In this document: positions 435 to 16,405 of the stretch, in pieces
Numbering within the stretch: the stretch's first letter is position 1
Layout of the letters: every line of letters starts with the position of its first letter
From: a virus
Strand: one strand, 5' to 3'
IMG/VR virus record: IMGVR_UViG_3300048586_000164
Span: 1 to 24,802 of that record
DNA length: 24,802 bases
Notes under the pieces: model-generated
Databases searched by the model: none
Told to the model about the DNA's origin: nothing
Seen by the model: only the letters and a program-made list of their open reading frames with translations
Program-made: the position numbers and the translations under genes

Positions 435-1061
435 TCAGCACCAGTCGAACGTGACGATGGAGAAGTCGGCGTCGTCGCTGGTGGAGCCCTGCCCGCTGTC
501 GGACTGGCGGCGCAGCTCGGCCGCGCGGGCGCGGAGCTCCGCGGCGACCGCGGGGCCGTCGGTGGCGAGGTCCTGGGTGCGGATCTTCTTCGACACGAGC
601 GCTTCGGAGGTGGCGATGCTGTCGAGGAGCTGCGCGGCGGCGAGGCGCACGTCAGCGGCCTCGAGCGCGAGGACGGCAGTGATCTGCGCGTCGGACAGAA
701 GCGGGTCGTCCTCGTCGAGGTCCGTGGTGAGGAGCCGCACCATGCCGACCGGGGTGGTGGGGTCGACCTCGATCGGGGCGAGGCCGAGCAGCGCCCGGCG
801 GACGACGACGAGGCCTTCCTCAGCGGAGTCGACGGCGCCGGTCGAGGTGGCGCGCCAGGCGTGGGTGCCGGGGACGGTGGGGTCGAAGGCGAGGCGGAAG
901 TGCCCGTCCTCGGGGTTCGTGACCGTCATCGGCGCGGTGGAGCCGTCGGGCTTGGTGACGGTGCCGGCCACTGTGCCGTTCGTCGGGGTGCCGGCGAGGT
1001 CGGTGAGGTACCAGTCGACGACGAACGTCTTCGACACCCAGATCGTGGTCGAGGTGCTCAT
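435..1061 (-). CDS. Head-tail connector protein, with N-terminal beta domain
   Basis: A protein of 208 residues with two parts. Residues 1-95 form a beta-rich, immunoglobulin-like segment (WVSKTFVVDWYL, then KPDG and a HFRLAFDPTVPGTH stretch). Residues about 105-195 are helical and resemble gp6-like head-tail connectors (TDLDEDDPLLSDAQI, then an Ala-rich helix and an RTQD...ELRARAAELRRQ helix). The acidic LLSDAQI motif followed by amphipathic helices is typical of adaptors that dock under the portal. The ATG start overlaps the stop of the repeat protein gene by four bases (ATGA). The beta domain resembles ligand- or decoration-type folds and may be exposed on the neck. The connector call is fairly secure, the beta-domain reading less so. 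Confidence 0.65.
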   Translation of the reverse strand: MSTSTTIWVSKTFVVDWYLTDLAGTPTNGTVAGTVTKPDGSTAPMTVTNPEDGHFRLAFDPTVPGTHAWRATSTGAVDSAEEGLVVVRRALLGLAPIEVDPTTPVGMVRLLTTDLDEDDPLLSDAQITAVLALEAADVRLAAAQLLDSIATSEALVSKKIRTQDLATDGPAVAAELRARAAELRRQSDSGQGSTSDDADFSIVTFDWC

Positions 1062-2104
1062 GAGCGGGTGACCTCCGATCGGGGTGCGGTGACGGTGACT
1101 CGAGCGGTGCTGGAGTCGACGGTCGGTGAGCTCGACGGGTGGAGCCGGGTTCGGGACCCGGGCTGGAGCACGGTGATCGTGGACAGAGCAGGGGCTGTGG
1201 GCGCCGCGACGATCACCGCGACGAGGACGCCGGCGGTGTCCGTCTCCGTCGCGCTGGTCAGCGATCGCGACTTCAGCCGCGCCAGCGTTGTGGTGGCGTC
1301 CGACTCGTTCGCGGCGATCAGGATGCGGGTCTTGGTCGGGGCCAGGGTGCGCGCAGCCGTGGTCTCGGTGGCCGAGGTCAGGGATCGACGGCGCGCCACG
1401 GAGAGCGCGGTAGCGGTCTCCGTGACGACGCTGAGCAACCGCGTCTTGCGCCGCGACAGGGTGACGACGGACACCGTCTCGGTGACCGGGGTCAGCGTGA
1501 CGGTCAGGGTCGTCCCGAGAGCTGCCGCGATGTCCGTCTCGGTGACGGGGTTGATCAGGCGCGTCTTCCGCCTCGTCAGCGTGACCACGCTGGTGGTCTC
1601 GGTGACGACGGGAAGCGCGCGGGTCTTGCGCCCAGCGAGGGCGAGCGCTGCAGCCGTGTCGGTCACGGCGCTCAGCTGTCGGGTCTTGCGGCGGCCCAAC
1701 GCGGTCGCGGAGGCGGACTCCGTGACCGTCGTGAGGGCGCGTGCCTTGCGGGACGCGACGGGGACGGCTGCGCTGGCCTCGCCGACGACCGTGAGGGACT
1801 TCGTCTTGCGCCGGGTCAGGACCTGCGCGGCGGCTGTATCGGAGACGATTCCGAGGGCGCGAGTCTTGCGCGCCACCACGGCGCCCGGGATGACCGTCTC
1901 GGTGACGGGGGTCAGTGTCTTGGTCTTGCTACGAGTGAGGGCTTGAGCCGTGGCCGCCTCGGTGACGGGCGTCAGCGTCGCTGAGAGACCGCCTCCGCCC
2001 GGCGTGGCGGTCAGGTCGTCGTCGAACCAGCCCTCGACGGTGAGGAGCGGGTCAAACCATCCGGTGGCGGTGAACTCGGGGTCGAACACTTGGGAGAGCG
2101 CCAC
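1058..2104 (-). CDS. Structural protein with thirteen 20-residue tandem repeats
   Basis: A protein of 348 residues. Residues 1-40 contain a repeated GWFD motif (TGWFDP, EGWFDDDL). Residues 44-297 consist of about thirteen tandem units, nearly all 20 residues long, with a core like VTET...AxxLxRRKTRxL. Unit 10 is shortened to 18 residues and the last is partial. The C-terminal 50 residues are Ser/Thr/Val-rich. Arrays of ETDTA-like repeats are common in structural proteins of actinobacterial phages, and the regular unit suggests an extended or beta-solenoid fibre. Start: GTG at 2104 with GGAGGAG eight bases upstream. Its stop overlaps the connector start. Position between capsid and connector genes suggests a virion surface protein. 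No enzymatic motif is visible. Function unknown. Confidence 0.75.
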   Translation of the reverse strand: MALSQVFDPEFTATGWFDPLLTVEGWFDDDLTATPGGGGLSATLTPVTEAATAQALTRSKTKTLTPVTETVIPGAVVARKTRALGIVSDTAAAQVLTRRKTKSLTVVGEASAAVPVASRKARALTTVTESASATALGRRKTRQLSAVTDTAAALALAGRKTRALPVVTETTSVVTLTRRKTRLINPVTETDIAAALGTTLTVTLTPVTETVSVVTLSRRKTRLLSVVTETATALSVARRRSLTSATETTAARTLAPTKTRILIAANESDATTTLARLKSRSLTSATETDTAGVLVAVIVAAPTAPALSTITVLQPGSRTRLHPSSSPTVDSSTARVTVTAPRSEVTRS

Positions 2105-9728: not shown

Positions 9729-11339
9729 TCAGGTGGTGTCGCCGACGACGGCGGCCGGGTCGCCGCCCTGGTTGAACGCGTCGACGGCGGCCTGCCCGGT
9801 CATGGACGCCGGCGCGATGAAGTTGCCGTCCTCGTCGGTGAGCTCGTCGAGGATCTCGTCGGGCTCGGCCACGCCGAGGGCCTGCAGCAGCAGCCGTGCG
9901 ACGACGAGCGGGGGCAGCTTCTCGGTCTGGTCGGCCAGCGCGATCGCCTTCACCAGCACGTCCACGGCGATGTCGTCGTCGAGGTCGGGCCAGTCGACGT
10001 CCACGGTGGGGTTGGTGTCACCGGCGAGGGTGACGATGAGGCGGTCGCCGTCGCGGGTGACGACGCCCTTGAGGGGTCCGCGGGGCGCGATGACGGCCTG
10101 GTCGATGACGTAGCCGAGGATCTGCTTCCACACGCCGGTCCAGAGGGCGCGGCGCGTGTCGGCCATGAGCTCGGTGGGGCGGTCGAGAGTCTCGGCGGTG
10201 GCGCGGGCACCGGTGGTGCCGGGGTCGCCGAGGAGCATCGTGACGGGGACGTCGAGGCCGGCGGCGACCATCGCCGCCAGGGGCCGGCCGGACTCGGAGT
10301 CGATGGTGGCGCCGGACTTCGGGATGGCCTCGAGGGTGATGTCGGGGGTCATCACGGCGGCGCCGGTCTGGTTCGCGCCGGTGATGGGGTCGACTGCTGG
10401 GGCGGCGGCGAGGGCCTTGCGGATCTTCGCCTGCTTCGACCCCGGGGCGGTGGCCCGCCACGCGAAGCGGGACAGCGCCTTGATCAGCGTGGCCCAGTCC
10501 TCGAGGAACGTCTTGTACGCGCGCGCCCAGTCGATCGCGGCGTAGGCGTCGGGGATGCCGAACTTCCACCCGAGGGGCTTGTTCTCGGCCCATGCGTGCA
10601 CGACGGGTGCGTCCCAGAGGACCTCGGCGCCGTCGAGGGCCTTCGGTCGCGTGGCCGGCCAGTACCCGACGGCAGGGTGGTAGGTGACGACGTCGCGGGT
10701 GGTGACCTTCCCCGTCGCCGGGTCGACCGTGGTGGTGATGCAGCGGCGCTTGTAGAACCAGTGCTCGTCGCGGTCGTCCGGGTTGGTGATCACGTCGACG
10801 ATCTCCGCGAACGGGATCAGCCGCGGCACGACCTTCCCGGTCAGCGGGGAGGTGAACAGCGCGACGAAGAAGTTCCCGTCGACGCCGAGGCACCGCTCGA
10901 GTGTGGCGTGCGCTCCCGGCCCGGACAGCACCGTCGTCGTGGACTTGTCGTCGAGGAAGTCCTGCACCACGGCGTTGACGTCCTGCTCGGCCGGGTTGTT
11001 CAGGTCCTGGCCGGTGGCGCGGGCGCTGATCTGCAGCCCGTCGCCCCACACGTAGTAGAACCGCAGCGCCAGGCCACGCTTGATCAGCGGGTTCTTGATC
11101 GCCATCAGCTGGCACAGCGCCGTGAGCTTCCGCATGCCGTCGCGGGTGAACTCGAGCTCGCCCTGCGACGCGAGGCGGGTCCAGCCTTGGTCGTCGAGTG
11201 CGAGCTCGAGCTCGGCGAGGGCTTCGGTGAGCAGCTCGTTGGTGGCCCGCTCCCGGGTGAGTTCCTCGCTGAGGTCGACGGGGTCGGTGTCCGGGAGGGC
11301 AGCGACGGTGCCGCCGCGGAGCGCGTCGAGGAGTCCCAC
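9729..11339 (-). CDS. Portal protein
   Basis: A protein of about 536 residues that forms the dodecameric DNA gate at the capsid vertex. Features: N-terminal charged helix, MRKLTALCQLMAIKNPLIKRGLALRFYYVWGDGLQI (the portal wing-to-core motif) in the first 110 residues, VDGNFFVALFTSP, TLEAIPKSGATID in the stem-crown region, and LDVPVTMLLGDPGTTGARATAETLDRP, a typical portal helix, near residue 370. The C-terminal 120 residues are acidic. Start: GTG at 11339 is favoured because GGAGG lies eight bases upstream; the in-frame GTG at 11345 would leave only two bases between. The gene follows the large terminase by 19 bases. High confidence. Confidence 0.9.
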   Translation of the reverse strand: MGLLDALRGGTVAALPDTDPVDLSEELTRERATNELLTEALAELELALDDQGWTRLASQGELEFTRDGMRKLTALCQLMAIKNPLIKRGLALRFYYVWGDGLQISARATGQDLNNPAEQDVNAVVQDFLDDKSTTTVLSGPGAHATLERCLGVDGNFFVALFTSPLTGKVVPRLIPFAEIVDVITNPDDRDEHWFYKRRCITTTVDPATGKVTTRDVVTYHPAVGYWPATRPKALDGAEVLWDAPVVHAWAENKPLGWKFGIPDAYAAIDWARAYKTFLEDWATLIKALSRFAWRATAPGSKQAKIRKALAAAPAVDPITGANQTGAAVMTPDITLEAIPKSGATIDSESGRPLAAMVAAGLDVPVTMLLGDPGTTGARATAETLDRPTELMADTRRALWTGVWKQILGYVIDQAVIAPRGPLKGVVTRDGDRLIVTLAGDTNPTVDVDWPDLDDDIAVDVLVKAIALADQTEKLPPLVVARLLLQALGVAEPDEILDELTDEDGNFIAPASMTGQAAVDAFNQGGDPAAVVGDTT

Positions 11340-11358: not shown

Positions 11359-13842
11359 CTAGTACGGGCTGATGGTCGAGTCGTCGAAGTCGTCGGGCTC
11401 GTAGACGTCGTCGCCGGCGAGCAGCGGCGAGAGGAGCAGCCGGTTCAGGCCCTGCGACATGGCGTCCACGGCGTCGTCATGTGCGCCGTTCGGGAACGCC
11501 GCGGCCTCGTCGACGAGGTCGACCACCCACGCGCACCCGTCGATGAGCGGGTCGGGCAGCCACACCTGGCCGGCCTCGATGAACGGCGCGACCGCGGAGG
11601 CGCGTGCGAGCTTCGACCCGTCCGGCTCCACGGGGATGAGACCGGGCACGGTGCGGCGCAGCATGTTGATCACGGCGGTGCCGTTGGCCTTGTCCTCGAC
11701 GACCTTCGCGATCGCCTGGGGCCACCTGGCGGCGAGGTTCTGCACGGCGGTCTTCGTGGCGACGAAGTCGAGGCGGGCTCGGATCATGTCGACGGCGTAC
11801 ACCTGGGTGCCGCGTCGGGCGAGGACCAGACCGACGACGTAGTCGGAGCCGTCGGTGTCCTTGAACGCCATGTCCCAGGAGTGGATGACCTCGTCGACGT
11901 TGGGGATCCAGCGGGTGCCGTCGTCGCGGACGATCCACTGGGCGCTCGCGTACTGCCGCCACCAGGGGCGCTTCCACACGCCGCCTTCGACCGGTGCTGG
12001 GCGGCCCTGGTAGAGGGCGTTCCAGTCGCGGGTGCCGGCCTGGACCTTGACCTGCTCCCACTCGCGGTCGCCTCGGGGTTGCCCGGTGCGTTCGTTGACG
12101 CGGGCGGAGAGCATGAACTCGCCGGGCTCACGGCCGAGGGGGTCGGTCTCACCCTTGGCGGGGTCGTGGTCGGCCTGCGCGGGGATGTTGATGACCCGCC
12201 ACCGGTGCCCGTCCTCGCGGCCGAGGAGCCACCCGGCGAGGTCATCCTCATGCCATCTCGTGAGCACGAGGACGACGGGTGCGCCGGGTGCGAGACGCGT
12301 GGATCCGGTGGACGTCCAGAACGTCTTCGCGCGCCGGCGGTACGCCTCGGACTCGGCCTGCACGCGGTTGGTGACCGGGTCGTCGATGAACAGCCAGTCC
12401 GCGGGCCGGCCTGTGATGCCACCGGAAAGGCCAATGGAGCGGACACCGCCGCGGTGCCCGGCGATGCGCCACGACGACACGGCCCCATTGTCGGGCGCGA
12501 TGCGCAGCCCGAGGTCGAGGGCGCCCTCGTCGCCCTGGTTGTTCACGATCAGGGAGCGGATGTCGCGGCCGAACTCGTTGGCGAGGTCCGCGCCGTAGGA
12601 CACGACGACGATGCGCCGGTCGGGGTTGCGGGTCAACGCCCACAGGGGCCCGACCTTCGTGACCCTGGTCGAGTTGTGTGTCGGGAGGAGCGAACGGCCC
12701 GCGAGGTAGGTGTGGCTGGGACTGTCGACCTCGATGCAGCGGACGGGGACGGTCGCTGCTGGTTCGGCCCACACGTACCGGGTCAGGGCGACGGAGGAGT
12801 TCTTGCAGCGCTCCCGGTGCCGGGGCAGCCAGGCAGCGTCAGCGCGGTAGAACCGGACCCGGAACCGTGGCCCGATGTCGCGGCCGTTCAGTCGAGCCCG
12901 GTCCTCGGTGATGGTGGCCTTCGCGCCGAGGGTGTACACGAGCTCGCGGACGTCGTCAGCGAGCCGCCGGCTGATCGAGGTGTACTCGACCTGGCCCTTG
13001 AGGGTGACGTGCCCGTCTGTGTCGACGAGGCCTTGGAGGAGCGCGAGGCGCTGCTCGGTAGACGCACGCAAGTACTGGACCGGGATGTGCTTGTTGCCCC
13101 AGACGTTGAGGTTCTGGAGCGCCTGGCGGACCGGTGACGTCGCGCTGCTGCCGCCCTCGGGGGCGAGGCTGTACCGGTACGGCGCGGTCATCTTGCGGCA
13201 CGGGTAACCGGCGGCGCGGATGCGGTCCGCGATCTCAGGGTCGGCGATCGTGATGGTCGCCGACGTCGAGGTGCCGTCGCCGAGCCAGGACCCGAGCAGG
13301 TAGGGGTCAAGTGGCAGGTCCGCGTGGGGTAGGCGCAGCTCGGAGGGTGCGGTTATCTGCGCGTTTTTGCTGCGAGGCTCTGCCAGGACACGGGTCTCGA
13401 CGGTGCGCTCACCTCTGCGCCGGTCGAGGCGGGCGACCCACTCGTGATCGGCGTCCGCGACGATCCGTTCCCCGTCGCCGGTGCGGACCGTGAGGCATGG
13501 TCGGCCGGTCCAGACGGGTGAGGTCCAGGTGACGGTGCACTGGTTGCCGTGACGGTCGAACACCTGATCGCCGACCTCGATGTCACCCATGGTCGTCCAC
13601 CCGGTGGGGGTGGCGATGGGGGTGTCGAGGGCTAGAGCTTTCCCCTCCTGCGGGGGCATCGAGATGATCAGGCGGTCGCATTCGCCGTTCTCGACGTCGA
13701 CGAGGGCTTGGTCGATGAGTTCGAGGGCCGGGGTCTGGCGTGTGGTGGGGTCGACGGCGGCGGCGAGCTCGCCGGGGGTGGCCCAGTGGCGGTGGACACG
13801 CTCGAGGCGCTCGGTGAACAGCTCGAGGGTCGGGCTGCTCAT
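11359..13842 (-). CDS. terL: Large terminase subunit interrupted by an intein
   Basis: An 827-residue precursor. Extein-N (1-68) ends in PPQEGK and extein-C begins at Ser391, together making the Walker A motif PPQEGKS of the packaging ATPase. After splicing the enzyme is 505 residues, normal for terminases. Extein-C carries the Walker B WLFIDDP at about 483-489, the coupling motif LVLTRWHEDD at 525-534, and an RNase H-like nuclease with Asp656 (SWDMAF), VEDKANG at 715-721 and HDDAVDA at 788-794. It cuts concatemeric DNA and pumps it into the prohead through the portal encoded next. Start: ATG at 13842. Its leader contains a hairpin that masks the upstream G-run. No frameshift; the insertion is in frame. 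Confidence 0.92.
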   Translation of the reverse strand: MSSPTLELFTERLERVHRHWATPGELAAAVDPTTRQTPALELIDQALVDVENGECDRLIISMPPQEGKALALDTPIATPTGWTTMGDIEVGDQVFDRHGNQCTVTWTSPVWTGRPCLTVRTGDGERIVADADHEWVARLDRRRGERTVETRVLAEPRSKNAQITAPSELRLPHADLPLDPYLLGSWLGDGTSTSATITIADPEIADRIRAAGYPCRKMTAPYRYSLAPEGGSSATSPVRQALQNLNVWGNKHIPVQYLRASTEQRLALLQGLVDTDGHVTLKGQVEYTSISRRLADDVRELVYTLGAKATITEDRARLNGRDIGPRFRVRFYRADAAWLPRHRERCKNSSVALTRYVWAEPAATVPVRCIEVDSPSHTYLAGRSLLPTHNSTRVTKVGPLWALTRNPDRRIVVVSYGADLANEFGRDIRSLIVNNQGDEGALDLGLRIAPDNGAVSSWRIAGHRGGVRSIGLSGGITGRPADWLFIDDPVTNRVQAESEAYRRRAKTFWTSTGSTRLAPGAPVVLVLTRWHEDDLAGWLLGREDGHRWRVINIPAQADHDPAKGETDPLGREPGEFMLSARVNERTGQPRGDREWEQVKVQAGTRDWNALYQGRPAPVEGGVWKRPWWRQYASAQWIVRDDGTRWIPNVDEVIHSWDMAFKDTDGSDYVVGLVLARRGTQVYAVDMIRARLDFVATKTAVQNLAARWPQAIAKVVEDKANGTAVINMLRRTVPGLIPVEPDGSKLARASAVAPFIEAGQVWLPDPLIDGCAWVVDLVDEAAAFPNGAHDDAVDAMSQGLNRLLLSPLLAGDDVYEPDDFDDSTISPY
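12673..13638 (-). mobile_element. Class 3-type intein with LAGLIDADG endonuclease, in terL Walker A motif
   Basis: The 322-residue insert (precursor residues 69-390) is an intein. It starts with Ala, not Cys or Ser, so the normal first nucleophile is absent. Instead it has the three class 3 markers: Trp135 in DADHEW (block B), Cys369 in VRCIEVDSPS (block F) and Thr388 in PTHN (block G), and then Asn390 with Ser391 as first extein residue. Cys369 would take over as the initiating nucleophile. Two LAGLIDADG helices are visible, LLGSWLGDG at 182-190 and LLQGLVDTDG at 268-277; both key aspartates (Asp189, Asp276) are present, so the homing enzyme may be active. Insertion in the P-loop means unspliced terminase cannot bind ATP. 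Confidence 0.92.
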
Positions 13843-14922: not shown

Positions 14923-15153
14923 TCAAGCATGGCGCGGAGGTGTCGCGCGTACTGGACGAGCTGCTCGCTCGTGTGTGAGGACGTCCGTCGGGTCGTCGCA
15001 CAGGGGGCAGGGGCTGGCGGATGTGCCGCGGGGTGGCACGCGGTAGCCGCATTGTTCGCACTCAAGCCACTCGCGGATGTGGTCCGTCGGTTGCAGCAGT
15101 CGCATCATCGGCGTCGTGGTGGCGGGGTGCGGGTCTTCACGCTGCTCGGTCAT
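14923..15153 (-). CDS. Small zinc-ribbon protein
   Basis: A protein of 76 residues with a four-cysteine ribbon: Cys32-x2-Cys35 and Cys49-x2-Cys52, spaced by GYRVPPRGTSASP. It is otherwise a helical N-terminal half (IREWLECEQCG) and a basic, Pro-rich tail. Function unknown; such ribbons bind zinc and often mediate nucleic-acid or protein contacts. The ATG overlaps the upstream stop by four bases (ATGA), no Shine-Dalgarno is needed, and it belongs to the early operon. Confidence 0.6.
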   Translation of the reverse strand: MTEQREDPHPATTTPMMRLLQPTDHIREWLECEQCGYRVPPRGTSASPCPLCDDPTDVLTHERAARPVRATPPRHA

Positions 15154-15734
15154 GACGCTCCTCGGACGAGTCGAAGGTGACGGGCGAAGACCGCCGGCGC
15201 AGCTGACCGCTGCGACGAGGTCAGGGCGAGCTCGGGGTCGCGGATCGTCGCCGACCAGGCCTGCTCGAGGAGGTCGACCTCCCGCTCGGACACTCGGACC
15301 ATGCGGGCGTCGAGGTCGAGGCGGGCCAGGTCGATCAGGAGCCGCCCGACTCGGTCGAGGGACCGCTCGTACACCGACACCTCGGCGCGGAGCTGCTCGG
15401 TGCCGATCTGCGACTGGTACCGCAGCCGGTCGTTGAGGTCGTTCACCCGGGTCCGCAGCGCGTCCTTGAACGCTTCCGCCTCGGACACGAGCCGCAGCAG
15501 CGCCCCCAGCGGGTCGGGGTGGGACTCGAACGACTCGGGGAGCATCTTCCTGACCTCGTCCTCCACGACCCGCTCTGCGGCCTTCGCCAGCGCCTGGGGG
15601 GCCTTCCCGCCGTGCTTCCCACAGACCCGCTGCCCCTTCATCGGCCGCAGCCGGCACGGACGGCCAGATACGTGGCCCTTGCACCGGTCATGGGTCTGAC
15701 CGCACGTCCGGCACTCTCGGGTGACGGGGGTCAT
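15150..15734 (-). CDS. Possible small terminase: Cys/His N-terminus and coiled coil
   Basis: A protein of 194 residues. The N-terminal 45 residues hold Cys8-x2-Cys11, His15, Cys18, His21, Cys27, Cys38 and His41 within RCKGHVSGRPC and the KHGGKAPQ motif. This CK...G.PC...VC.KHGG pattern is very common in proteins encoded upstream of terminases in actinophages, some labelled small terminase. Residues 80-160 are a long amphipathic helix suitable for oligomerisation. A small terminase that recognises DNA for packaging is the best guess from position; the neighbouring zinc/HTH protein is an alternative candidate. Start overlaps the replication gene stop by four bases (ATGA). Note that it is joined to the early operon, not the late one. 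Confidence 0.5.
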   Translation of the reverse strand: MTPVTRECRTCGQTHDRCKGHVSGRPCRLRPMKGQRVCGKHGGKAPQALAKAAERVVEDEVRKMLPESFESHPDPLGALLRLVSEAEAFKDALRTRVNDLNDRLRYQSQIGTEQLRAEVSVYERSLDRVGRLLIDLARLDLDARMVRVSEREVDLLEQAWSATIRDPELALTSSQRSAAPAVFARHLRLVRGAS

Positions 15735-16405
15735 CGGGTGCCTCCGAGGGCTGCGGGGTGGTGGTCGTCTGGGGTGTCGGTGTCGTTGGTGGTGTCGTCG
15801 TCGTTGTCCACAGGGAGTGGTGTCAGGTGTGTCATGTCGGCTGGTAGGGGTTGTGTGGGTCGTCTCTGTGGGTCTCTTGGGTTTCTTGGGTATAGGGGGG
15901 TCACTGAGTGACCCCCAGTCGGGTCGTTGAGTGACCCCCAGTCGGGTCGTTCAGCGACCCCCTTAGGGGGTCGTTCAGTGACCCCCAGCGGGGGTCGTTC
16001 AGTGACCCCCTCAACCTCAGGTCTAGGGGTCGTTGAGTGACCCCCAGTCGGGGTGTTATCCACAGGCCCGTCTGTCGTGTCTGGGGTGTGCTCAGTGACC
16101 CCCTCGGGGAGTCGTCCGATGAGGAGCCGGTACGACTGCCGGACCCCGGTGTGGGCGGTCGAGGTGCGCTCGACGACGCCGGCCGCAACGAGGGCTTGGA
16201 GGGCCTGCTTCACGGCGGTCTGGGCGGCTTTCACGGTCGGGTCGGGGTAGCCGAGGCCGAGGGCGAGCTGGTCGCGTCCGGCGAAGTAGTGGGGGTCGGG
16301 GTCGTCGTCGCGAGGTGCGAGGGCCATCCAGGCGAGGAGTCGCAGGGGGCGGTGGTCGAGGCTCCCGTGGAGCAGGTACGCGGCACGGACCAGGGCGCTA
16401 CCCAC
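15731..16405 (-). CDS. Winged-helix protein, putative replication initiator containing the origin
   Basis: A protein of 224 residues. Residues about 15-96 form a winged helix-turn-helix: LRLLAWMALAP, YFAGRDQLALGLGY, then VKQALQALVAAGVVERTSTAHTGVRQSYRLLIG. From 100 on the chain is low-complexity with GVTERPP, GGHSTTP, GSLNDP and GGHSVTP segments encoded by iteron-like DNA repeats, then a Pro/Asp/Thr-rich acidic tail. This is the arrangement of lambda O: DNA-binding N-terminus, origin repeats inside the gene, a C-terminal tail that could load partner proteins. Start: GTG at 16405, 27 bases after the upstream stop and without a clear Shine-Dalgarno site. No helicase loader is recognisable nearby. 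Family assignment is by domain pattern; the initiator role is inferred. Confidence 0.65.
   Translation of the reverse strand: MGSALVRAAYLLHGSLDHRPLRLLAWMALAPRDDDPDPHYFAGRDQLALGLGYPDPTVKAAQTAVKQALQALVAAGVVERTSTAHTGVRQSYRLLIGRLPEGVTEHTPDTTDGPVDNTPTGGHSTTPRPEVEGVTERPPLGVTERPPKGVAERPDWGSLNDPTGGHSVTPLYPRNPRDPQRRPTQPLPADMTHLTPLPVDNDDDTTNDTDTPDDHHPAALGGTR
15804..15812 (+). promoter_or_regulatory. DnaA box, actinobacterial consensus
   Basis: TTGTCCACA, identical to the consensus DnaA box of Streptomyces, lies about 85 bases left of the first iteron. Its codons are read as part of PVDN in the acidic tail of the winged-helix protein. Same orientation as the second box at 16056. Confidence 0.65.
15896..16103. 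repeat. Seven iteron-like repeats
   Basis: Copies at 15896-15916, 15921-15939, 15944-15962, 15966-15986, 15990-16010, 16026-16045 and 16083-16103. Five are spaced 23-24 bp centre to centre, then 36 and 57 bp. On the minus strand the core is GGGGGTCACT followed by N and AACGACCCC. The first copy is a perfect 21-bp palindrome built from GGGGGTCACT and its complement around one central base; the last is the most degenerate. Because the same DNA is translated as GVTERPP, GSLNDP and GGHSVTP in different frames, the DNA, not the peptide, seems conserved. Confidence 0.85.
16056..16064 (+). promoter_or_regulatory. DnaA box, strong consensus
   Basis: TTATCCACA, the classical strongest DnaA box, sits between the sixth and seventh iterons. 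With the box at 15804 it brackets the dense part of the array. Chance occurrence of such an A+T-rich 9-mer twice within 260 bp of high-G+C DNA is low. Confidence 0.7.

Follow-up and report, generated by a model that had tools for sequence, protein, structure and literature searches.

Placement of an origin of replication within the gene for its own initiator is a classical design, represented by the phages lambda, SPP1 and TP901-1/Tuc2009 (PMC7466680, PMC6316719, PMC8965321). Lambda O binds its sites as a dimer (PMC7466680). SPP1 gp38 at oriL and the TP901-1/Tuc2009 replisome organizers bind direct repeats inside their own genes, and SPP1 has an AT-rich unwinding element (PMC6316719, PMC8965321). 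In PICI/SaPI elements the order runs from the int/xis side to the initiator and then the ori, whose iterons directly follow the 3' end of the initiator gene and which has an AT-rich melting site (PMC6092414). The RepA proteins of the mycobacteriophages Miko and Rachaly are HTH initiators whose origin is suspected to lie in or next to repA (PMC7157519).

Here we describe a locus of this general layout in a 24.8-kb IMG/VR phage fragment of about 71% G+C (the window; 24,802 nucleotides analysed over its full length). A gene on the minus strand contains an array of palindromic repeats in its 3' half. Judged from the sequence and its relatives, the gene very probably encodes a winged-helix replication initiator, with the array serving as its own origin. 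The best explanation of the locus is a self-contained replicon in which initiator, iterons and unwinding region would lie together, as in the lambda O, SPP1 and PICI designs.

A palindromic repeat array in the window

The array consists of seven 21-bp palindrome-like copies (Table 1) with start-to-start distances of 23, 23, 24, 24, 35 and 58 bp. Its unit on the coding (minus) strand, GGGGGTCACTSARYGACCCCC, is a near-palindrome. Recomputed positions agree to the base with an earlier sequence-only reading that placed seven copies, five of them spaced by 23-24 bp, at 15896-16103. The same reading described the first copy as a perfect palindrome, and its two 10-bp arms are indeed free of mismatches. 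It had also noted that the array is read in three frames: four copies fall in frame 2 of the coding strand (EGVTERPP, LGVTERPP, KGVAERPD and EGVTEHTP), two in frame 0 (GGHSVTPL and GGHSTTPR) and one in frame 1 (WGSLNDPT). Allowing up to three mismatches, the motif GGTCRYTSAGYGACCCCC occurs 15 times in the window, where 0.98 matches would be expected, a count that 100 dinucleotide shuffles never reached. Of 133 other 350-bp stretches tested across the window, none holds a 13-mer seven times when up to two mismatches are tolerated. The GC skew of the window shows no switch at the array.

Table 1 Coordinates of the candidate origin, its gene and related features (window positions unless a locus is named)
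Feature	Position	Strand	Remarks
Putative replication initiator gene	15731-16405	-	224 aa, GTG start; assigned by profile and homologues
Predicted winged-helix domain	16112-16405	-	residues 1-98; family profile
Iteron 1	15896-15916	-	GGGGGTCACTGAGTGACCCCC; perfect 10-bp arms flanking one central base; adjoins A/C-rich stretch
Iteron 2	15919-15939	-	motif copy
Iteron 3	15942-15962	-	motif copy
Iteron 4	15966-15986	-	motif copy
Iteron 5	15990-16010	-	motif copy
Iteron 6	16025-16045	-	motif copy
Iteron 7	16083-16103	-	degenerate, one arm
Exact DnaA box	16056-16064	+	TTATCCACA; between iterons 6 and 7
Exact DnaA box	15804-15812	+	TTGTCCACA; far side of A/C-rich stretch; position matches L062/L063
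A/C-rich candidate unwinding region	15813-15895	-	after last iteron; coding strand CCTATACCCAAGAAACCCAAGAGACCC...
HGG-type gene, possible small terminase	15150-15734	-	before TerL; overlaps initiator stop by 4 bp (ATGA)
REP-like GGTCGCTGAGCGACC arrays	L036 3762-3848; L037 3865-3993		Gordonia sputi copy beside rpsO-like gene

The array and the DNA beyond it encode a disordered tail of the protein. The preceding domain is recognized by our family profile A1, built from nine sequences including that of the window itself, which matches 16115-16402 with an E-value of 2.3e-34. HTH profile matches of the protein are weak. A single-sequence AlphaFold model of the full-length protein gives the order H-H-H-H-E-E at low confidence (mean pLDDT 50), and a domain-only model (mean pLDDT 55) does not reproduce the wing; both are of too low quality for a fold comparison. 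The protein falls under no Pfam or NCBIfam model. Run against PDB sequences, the family profile gave nothing below E 0.1, and Rfam and tRNA searches of the window were empty. At the protein level, links to replication initiators are weak. The profile phrog_270, annotated as a replication initiation protein, matches the window protein at E 0.0032 and its best-scoring relative, L065, at 1.8e-6. The same profile has matches in 12 of 14 control genomes and therefore behaves as a generic winged-helix profile, so that we discount its label as support for the identity of the initiator.

Relatives of the gene and their arrays

Exact peptide seeds and tblastn found no close relatives of the window protein in viral contigs, phages, plasmids or GTDB contigs. 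A tblastn search of 396 genomes from the order of Janibacter (Micrococcales) returned relatives, the best at E 1e-11 with 44% protein identity; the homologues are otherwise at 27-41% identity. Profile A1 matches 13 of the 396 Micrococcales genomes and 21 of 300 genomes of one family, and gives a single weak match in a 396-genome draw from the phylum, which indicates that the family occurs mainly in Micrococcales. Among the invariant residues are M1, G2, M27, A28, D33, L72 and G76. We found no description of it in the open-access literature.

More than 20 related genes in actinobacterial mobile elements share the layout of the window, with differing site sequences. For quantification we used 28 non-redundant loci, leaving out near-duplicates and the doubtful homologues L105 and L106, together with 676 control windows from the same loci; a repeat was scored where at least 13 of 16 positions match at a given shift within 250 bp past the winged-helix domain. 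Repeats at a 23-bp shift occur in 10 of the 28 loci (36%) against 0.4% of control windows, and at a 24-bp shift in 17 (61%) against 2.5%. A further peak, at 47-48 bp, fits the multiple expected of this spacing. Iteron origins are marked by several repeats at regular intervals close to the initiator gene, and such repeats are found in the window and in the 28-locus family alike.

The sites of the closest relatives, L062 (GGGGGCCACTGATCGGCCCCC) and L063 (GGGGGTCAATATGTGGACCCC), resemble that of the window (GGGGGTCACTGAACGACCCCC) and have the form GGGGGCC/GGGGGTC...GGCCCCC/GACCCCC. Elsewhere the sequences are different: GTCCCGGAAAGCGGGAC every 24-25 bp in L065, GGACCTCTACAGGTCC every 24-26 bp in L071, AGGGTCGCCCACGACCCT every 24-25 bp in L068, and, every 23-24 bp, GTACGCCTGACGTAC in L100 and CGGAATCCGTACC in L101. 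The position of the stop codon varies as well. The array is wholly coding in the window, L065, L067, L080 and L081; in L062 and L063 it contains the stop codon, which leaves the later copies non-coding, and in L068, L069 and L071 all copies lie past the stop. In L081 (about 1800-1975) the spacing is nested, running 33, 22, 23, 33, 22, 23, which looks like the duplication of a 78-bp block holding three sites, a possible route of array growth. One family member, L064 (8318-9139), has no visible array; it may be a decayed replicon or have its origin elsewhere.

The sequence-only reading had proposed that the DNA rather than the peptide is conserved, and that relatives should keep the repeats while the frame changes. 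This check, which we ran, came out more strongly than expected: palindromes at 23-24 bp are kept right after the domain, the encoded peptides differ in both frame and sequence, and the arrays lie partly or wholly past the stop. That an array can sit inside the gene, across its stop or after it indicates that the DNA is kept and not the peptide. The persistence of the repeats at changing frame likewise supports the proposal of an origin array within an initiator-like gene.

These observations bear on the idea that the array reflects low-complexity peptide repeats, or a chromosomal REP-like palindrome that landed in the gene. Tandem GGTCGCTGAGCGACC palindromes unlinked to a winged-helix gene do occur in the chromosomes of Gordonia sputi and Janibacter hoylei (Table 1). 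Against this stand the use of all three frames in the window and the relatives' arrays, which occupy the same position with another sequence and lie in part or entirely outside the coding region, so that neither selection on a peptide nor a single mobile repeat explains them. No relative with a conserved peptide and scrambled DNA sites was seen among the family loci, and we give this explanation a negligible probability.

We also searched by DNA pattern. A strict two-copy pattern had no match in viral contigs and a looser one had a single match, L029. In genomes, a three-copy pattern retrieved only the chromosomal REP-like palindromes and a Clostridiales repeat, which we judge unrelated. One other IMG/VR contig, from an unrelated phage (L034), was retrieved by DNA pattern alone, independently of the protein search. 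Four GGTCASTCACTGACC sites (10173-10256), 23 bp apart and with a near-identical iteron core, stand there at the end of a predicted winged-helix gene that heads a set of replication genes; a DnaB-type helicase and a primase lie a few genes downstream and a family-A polymerase farther on. The L034 protein has no detectable homology to the initiator family (hhalign, 69 columns, probability 2%), and the likeness may thus reflect convergence or deep divergence.

DnaA boxes, A-rich flank and gene neighbourhood

Two exact DnaA boxes (TTRTCCACA) lie at the array, and they are the only ones in the window, where 0.06 are expected. The sequence-only reading overlooked both of them and the nearby G+C minimum. 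Across the family, array regions contain nine exact boxes in 11,480 bp against none in 191,929 bp of flanking DNA, and 8 of the 28 loci have one. DnaA boxes in or near the origin are a common, though not universal, feature of iteron origins, and their presence here suggests that host DnaA may take part in initiation.

The 40-bp G+C minimum near the gene (53%, 15873-15912) overlaps the start of the A/C-rich region and belongs to the lowest 0.3% of 40-bp windows, although its A-richness is local and reaches 53% G+C at best. On the coding strand, an A-rich stretch after the array (at least 40% A in 50 bp) is present in 19 of the 28 loci against 3.7% of control regions. A candidate for the adjacent A+T-rich unwinding region typical of iteron origins is seen family-wide and in modest form in the window. 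An AGGAA-like motif at a broad spacing of 9-13 bp is also enriched, with at least three in 60 bp in 15 of the 28 loci against 3.6% of controls; this enrichment is only suggestive because the motif set was chosen after inspection of the sequences. The window has CCAAGAAACCCAAGAGACCC in its place and a motif score of 0.

Modelled on lambda O and SPP1 gp38 (PMC7466680, PMC6316719), initiation would begin with dimers of the winged-helix domain binding the seven palindromic sites, about two helical turns apart. The bound dimers would wrap the DNA into a compact nucleoprotein complex, which would open the adjacent A/C-rich stretch, with host DnaA, bound at its two flanking boxes, assisting in the loading of the host's DnaB helicase. 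We assign this last role to the host since no helicase or helicase loader gene is seen in the 24.8-kb fragment. By analogy with these systems we infer that the window protein binds the sites and occupies them as dimers, that unwinding and helicase loading take place there, and that the segment acts as an origin.

Palindromic dimer sites and a winged-helix fold would also suit an early regulator acting on its own operon through sites inside its gene, and some family members match regulator profiles as well. The sequence-only reading had suggested that the perfect palindrome, iteron 1, might be the strongest binding site or an autoregulatory operator; this copy adjoins the A/C-rich stretch and does not have the promoter-side location that an operator would be expected to have. 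The sites, however, lie in the 3' half of the gene or past it, no promoter-side position is seen, and operators alone would account poorly for the regular 23-24 bp phasing, the DnaA boxes exclusive to array regions and the A-rich flank. We consider operators as the sole function very improbable.

Gene order bears on two further explanations of the array. In the window the genes for YqaJ, RecT, a ParB-like protein, DUF2303, the initiator-like protein, the HGG-type protein, an intein-bearing TerL and the portal are all on the minus strand, and the initiator-like gene is followed by the HGG-type gene, a MerR-like/phrog_908 gene and TerL. The TerL gene (11359-13842, minus strand) has an in-frame LAGLIDADG intein, with Hom_end/LAGLIDADG_3 matches between the two terminase halves. 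Farther along the same strand, an HNH-endonuclease-like gene (2131-2775; identified by eye from the translation) stands among structural genes. A protein encoded at 1058-2104 (minus strand) carries repeats of about 20 aa (LTPVTETA...RRKTRAL), visible as 60-bp periodic DNA repeats, and is probably a tail/adhesin-type surface protein.

The array could on this arrangement be a pac or cos site recognized by terminase: it is situated 160-370 bp ahead of the HGG-type gene, which comes before TerL in the window as well as in relatives; in L069 the next predicted gene is TerL, and portal or terminase genes are found close by in L069, L125 and L128. The arrays nevertheless follow the winged-helix gene and not terminase, which contradicts a packaging site. 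An SSB gene comes after the array in L062 and L063 and a ParA-type gene in others, L067 and L071 have no match to terminase or portal queries, and phages with the HGG-type gene, TerL and portal but lacking the winged-helix gene showed no array. The usual neighbours of the family are replication and mobility genes, not packaging genes; a packaging site has a very small chance of being correct, and the HGG-type gene is context, outside the replicon proper.

The most serious rival is a partition site, since a ParA-like gene follows in one clade: the winged-helix protein would bind a centromere and the array would be a parS-like locus. Winged-helix centromere binders with iterated sites exist, TubR and AspA among them. 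By motif reading, a ParA-type gene stands directly after the array in L120, L121, L122, L133 and L135, and the window has a ParB-like gene. The last four of these loci share the order int - XRE - xis - initiator - array - ParA-like (phmmer; ParA by motif reading), which looks like a satellite or plasmid-like family, a recurrent small integrated element of Micrococcales. A centromere, however, needs neither DnaA boxes nor an A-rich flank. Members with SSB or with a prim-pol gene before the initiator (L067) lack ParA, and L034 has helicase and primase as neighbours. In the window no ParA or TubZ is found near the gene, and the ParB-like gene is 1.4 kb off, two genes upstream. We therefore regard partition as unlikely and retain the initiator with its own origin as the preferred explanation.

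A broader proposal, possible but on balance rather doubtful, is that these loci form a family of small winged-helix initiators, so far undescribed, in Micrococcales phages, satellites and plasmid-like elements. Each lineage would have its own orthogonal iterons, in an array that keeps a constant distance from the DNA-binding domain but can slide across the stop; about half of the members would carry an AGGAA-type element phased at about 11-12 bp, possibly an initiator-specific single-strand loading signal. If the preferred explanation, an initiator with its own origin, is right, the locus would offer a gene-length portable replicon for high-G+C actinobacteria, where vectors are few, and the family many initiator/iteron pairs expected to be mutually orthogonal. 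It would also be a natural experiment on coding and origin functions sharing DNA, with all, half or none of the sites coding depending on the member.

Comparison with described origins

Lambda O is one of the closest models in layout. Its N-terminal DNA-binding part is likewise followed by iterons inside the gene, with annotated starts 20, 24 and 23 bp apart; these are imperfect palindromes, and an A-rich stretch lies on the same side. The sequence-only reading had seen a copy of the lambda O design. This stands for the placement of the origin in the initiator gene and of the iterons past the N-terminal part, but homology to O is not detectable (hhalign with the family alignment A2, probability 0.1%, E 0.56). 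Its further remark that the repeat sequence appears unrelated to that of lambda agrees with our finding no detectable iteron similarity. Unlike lambda, the window has DnaA boxes inside the region and no P-like loader gene is seen downstream, and the arrays of relatives shift beyond the stop codon.

SPP1, TP901-1 and Tuc2009 share with the window the location of the initiator's repeats within the initiator gene. TP901-1 Rep has no detectable similarity to the window protein, and the hosts of these phages are low-G+C Firmicutes. The PICI/SaPI order is close to the int-XRE-xis-gene-array order of the integrated Micrococcales elements. The PICI ori has iterons on both sides of its AT-rich region, in two sets, together with a module of primase and rep, whereas the family described here has a single iteron set, confined to the gene side, and its protein is a small winged-helix one. 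The Miko and Rachaly RepA proteins resemble the window protein as actinophage HTH initiators with a suspected origin nearby; no repeats were found there (PMC7157519), in contrast to the explicit repeats of the window.

The origin-in-initiator design itself is classical; the protein family has no Pfam or NCBIfam model and, in the open-access literature searched, no description.
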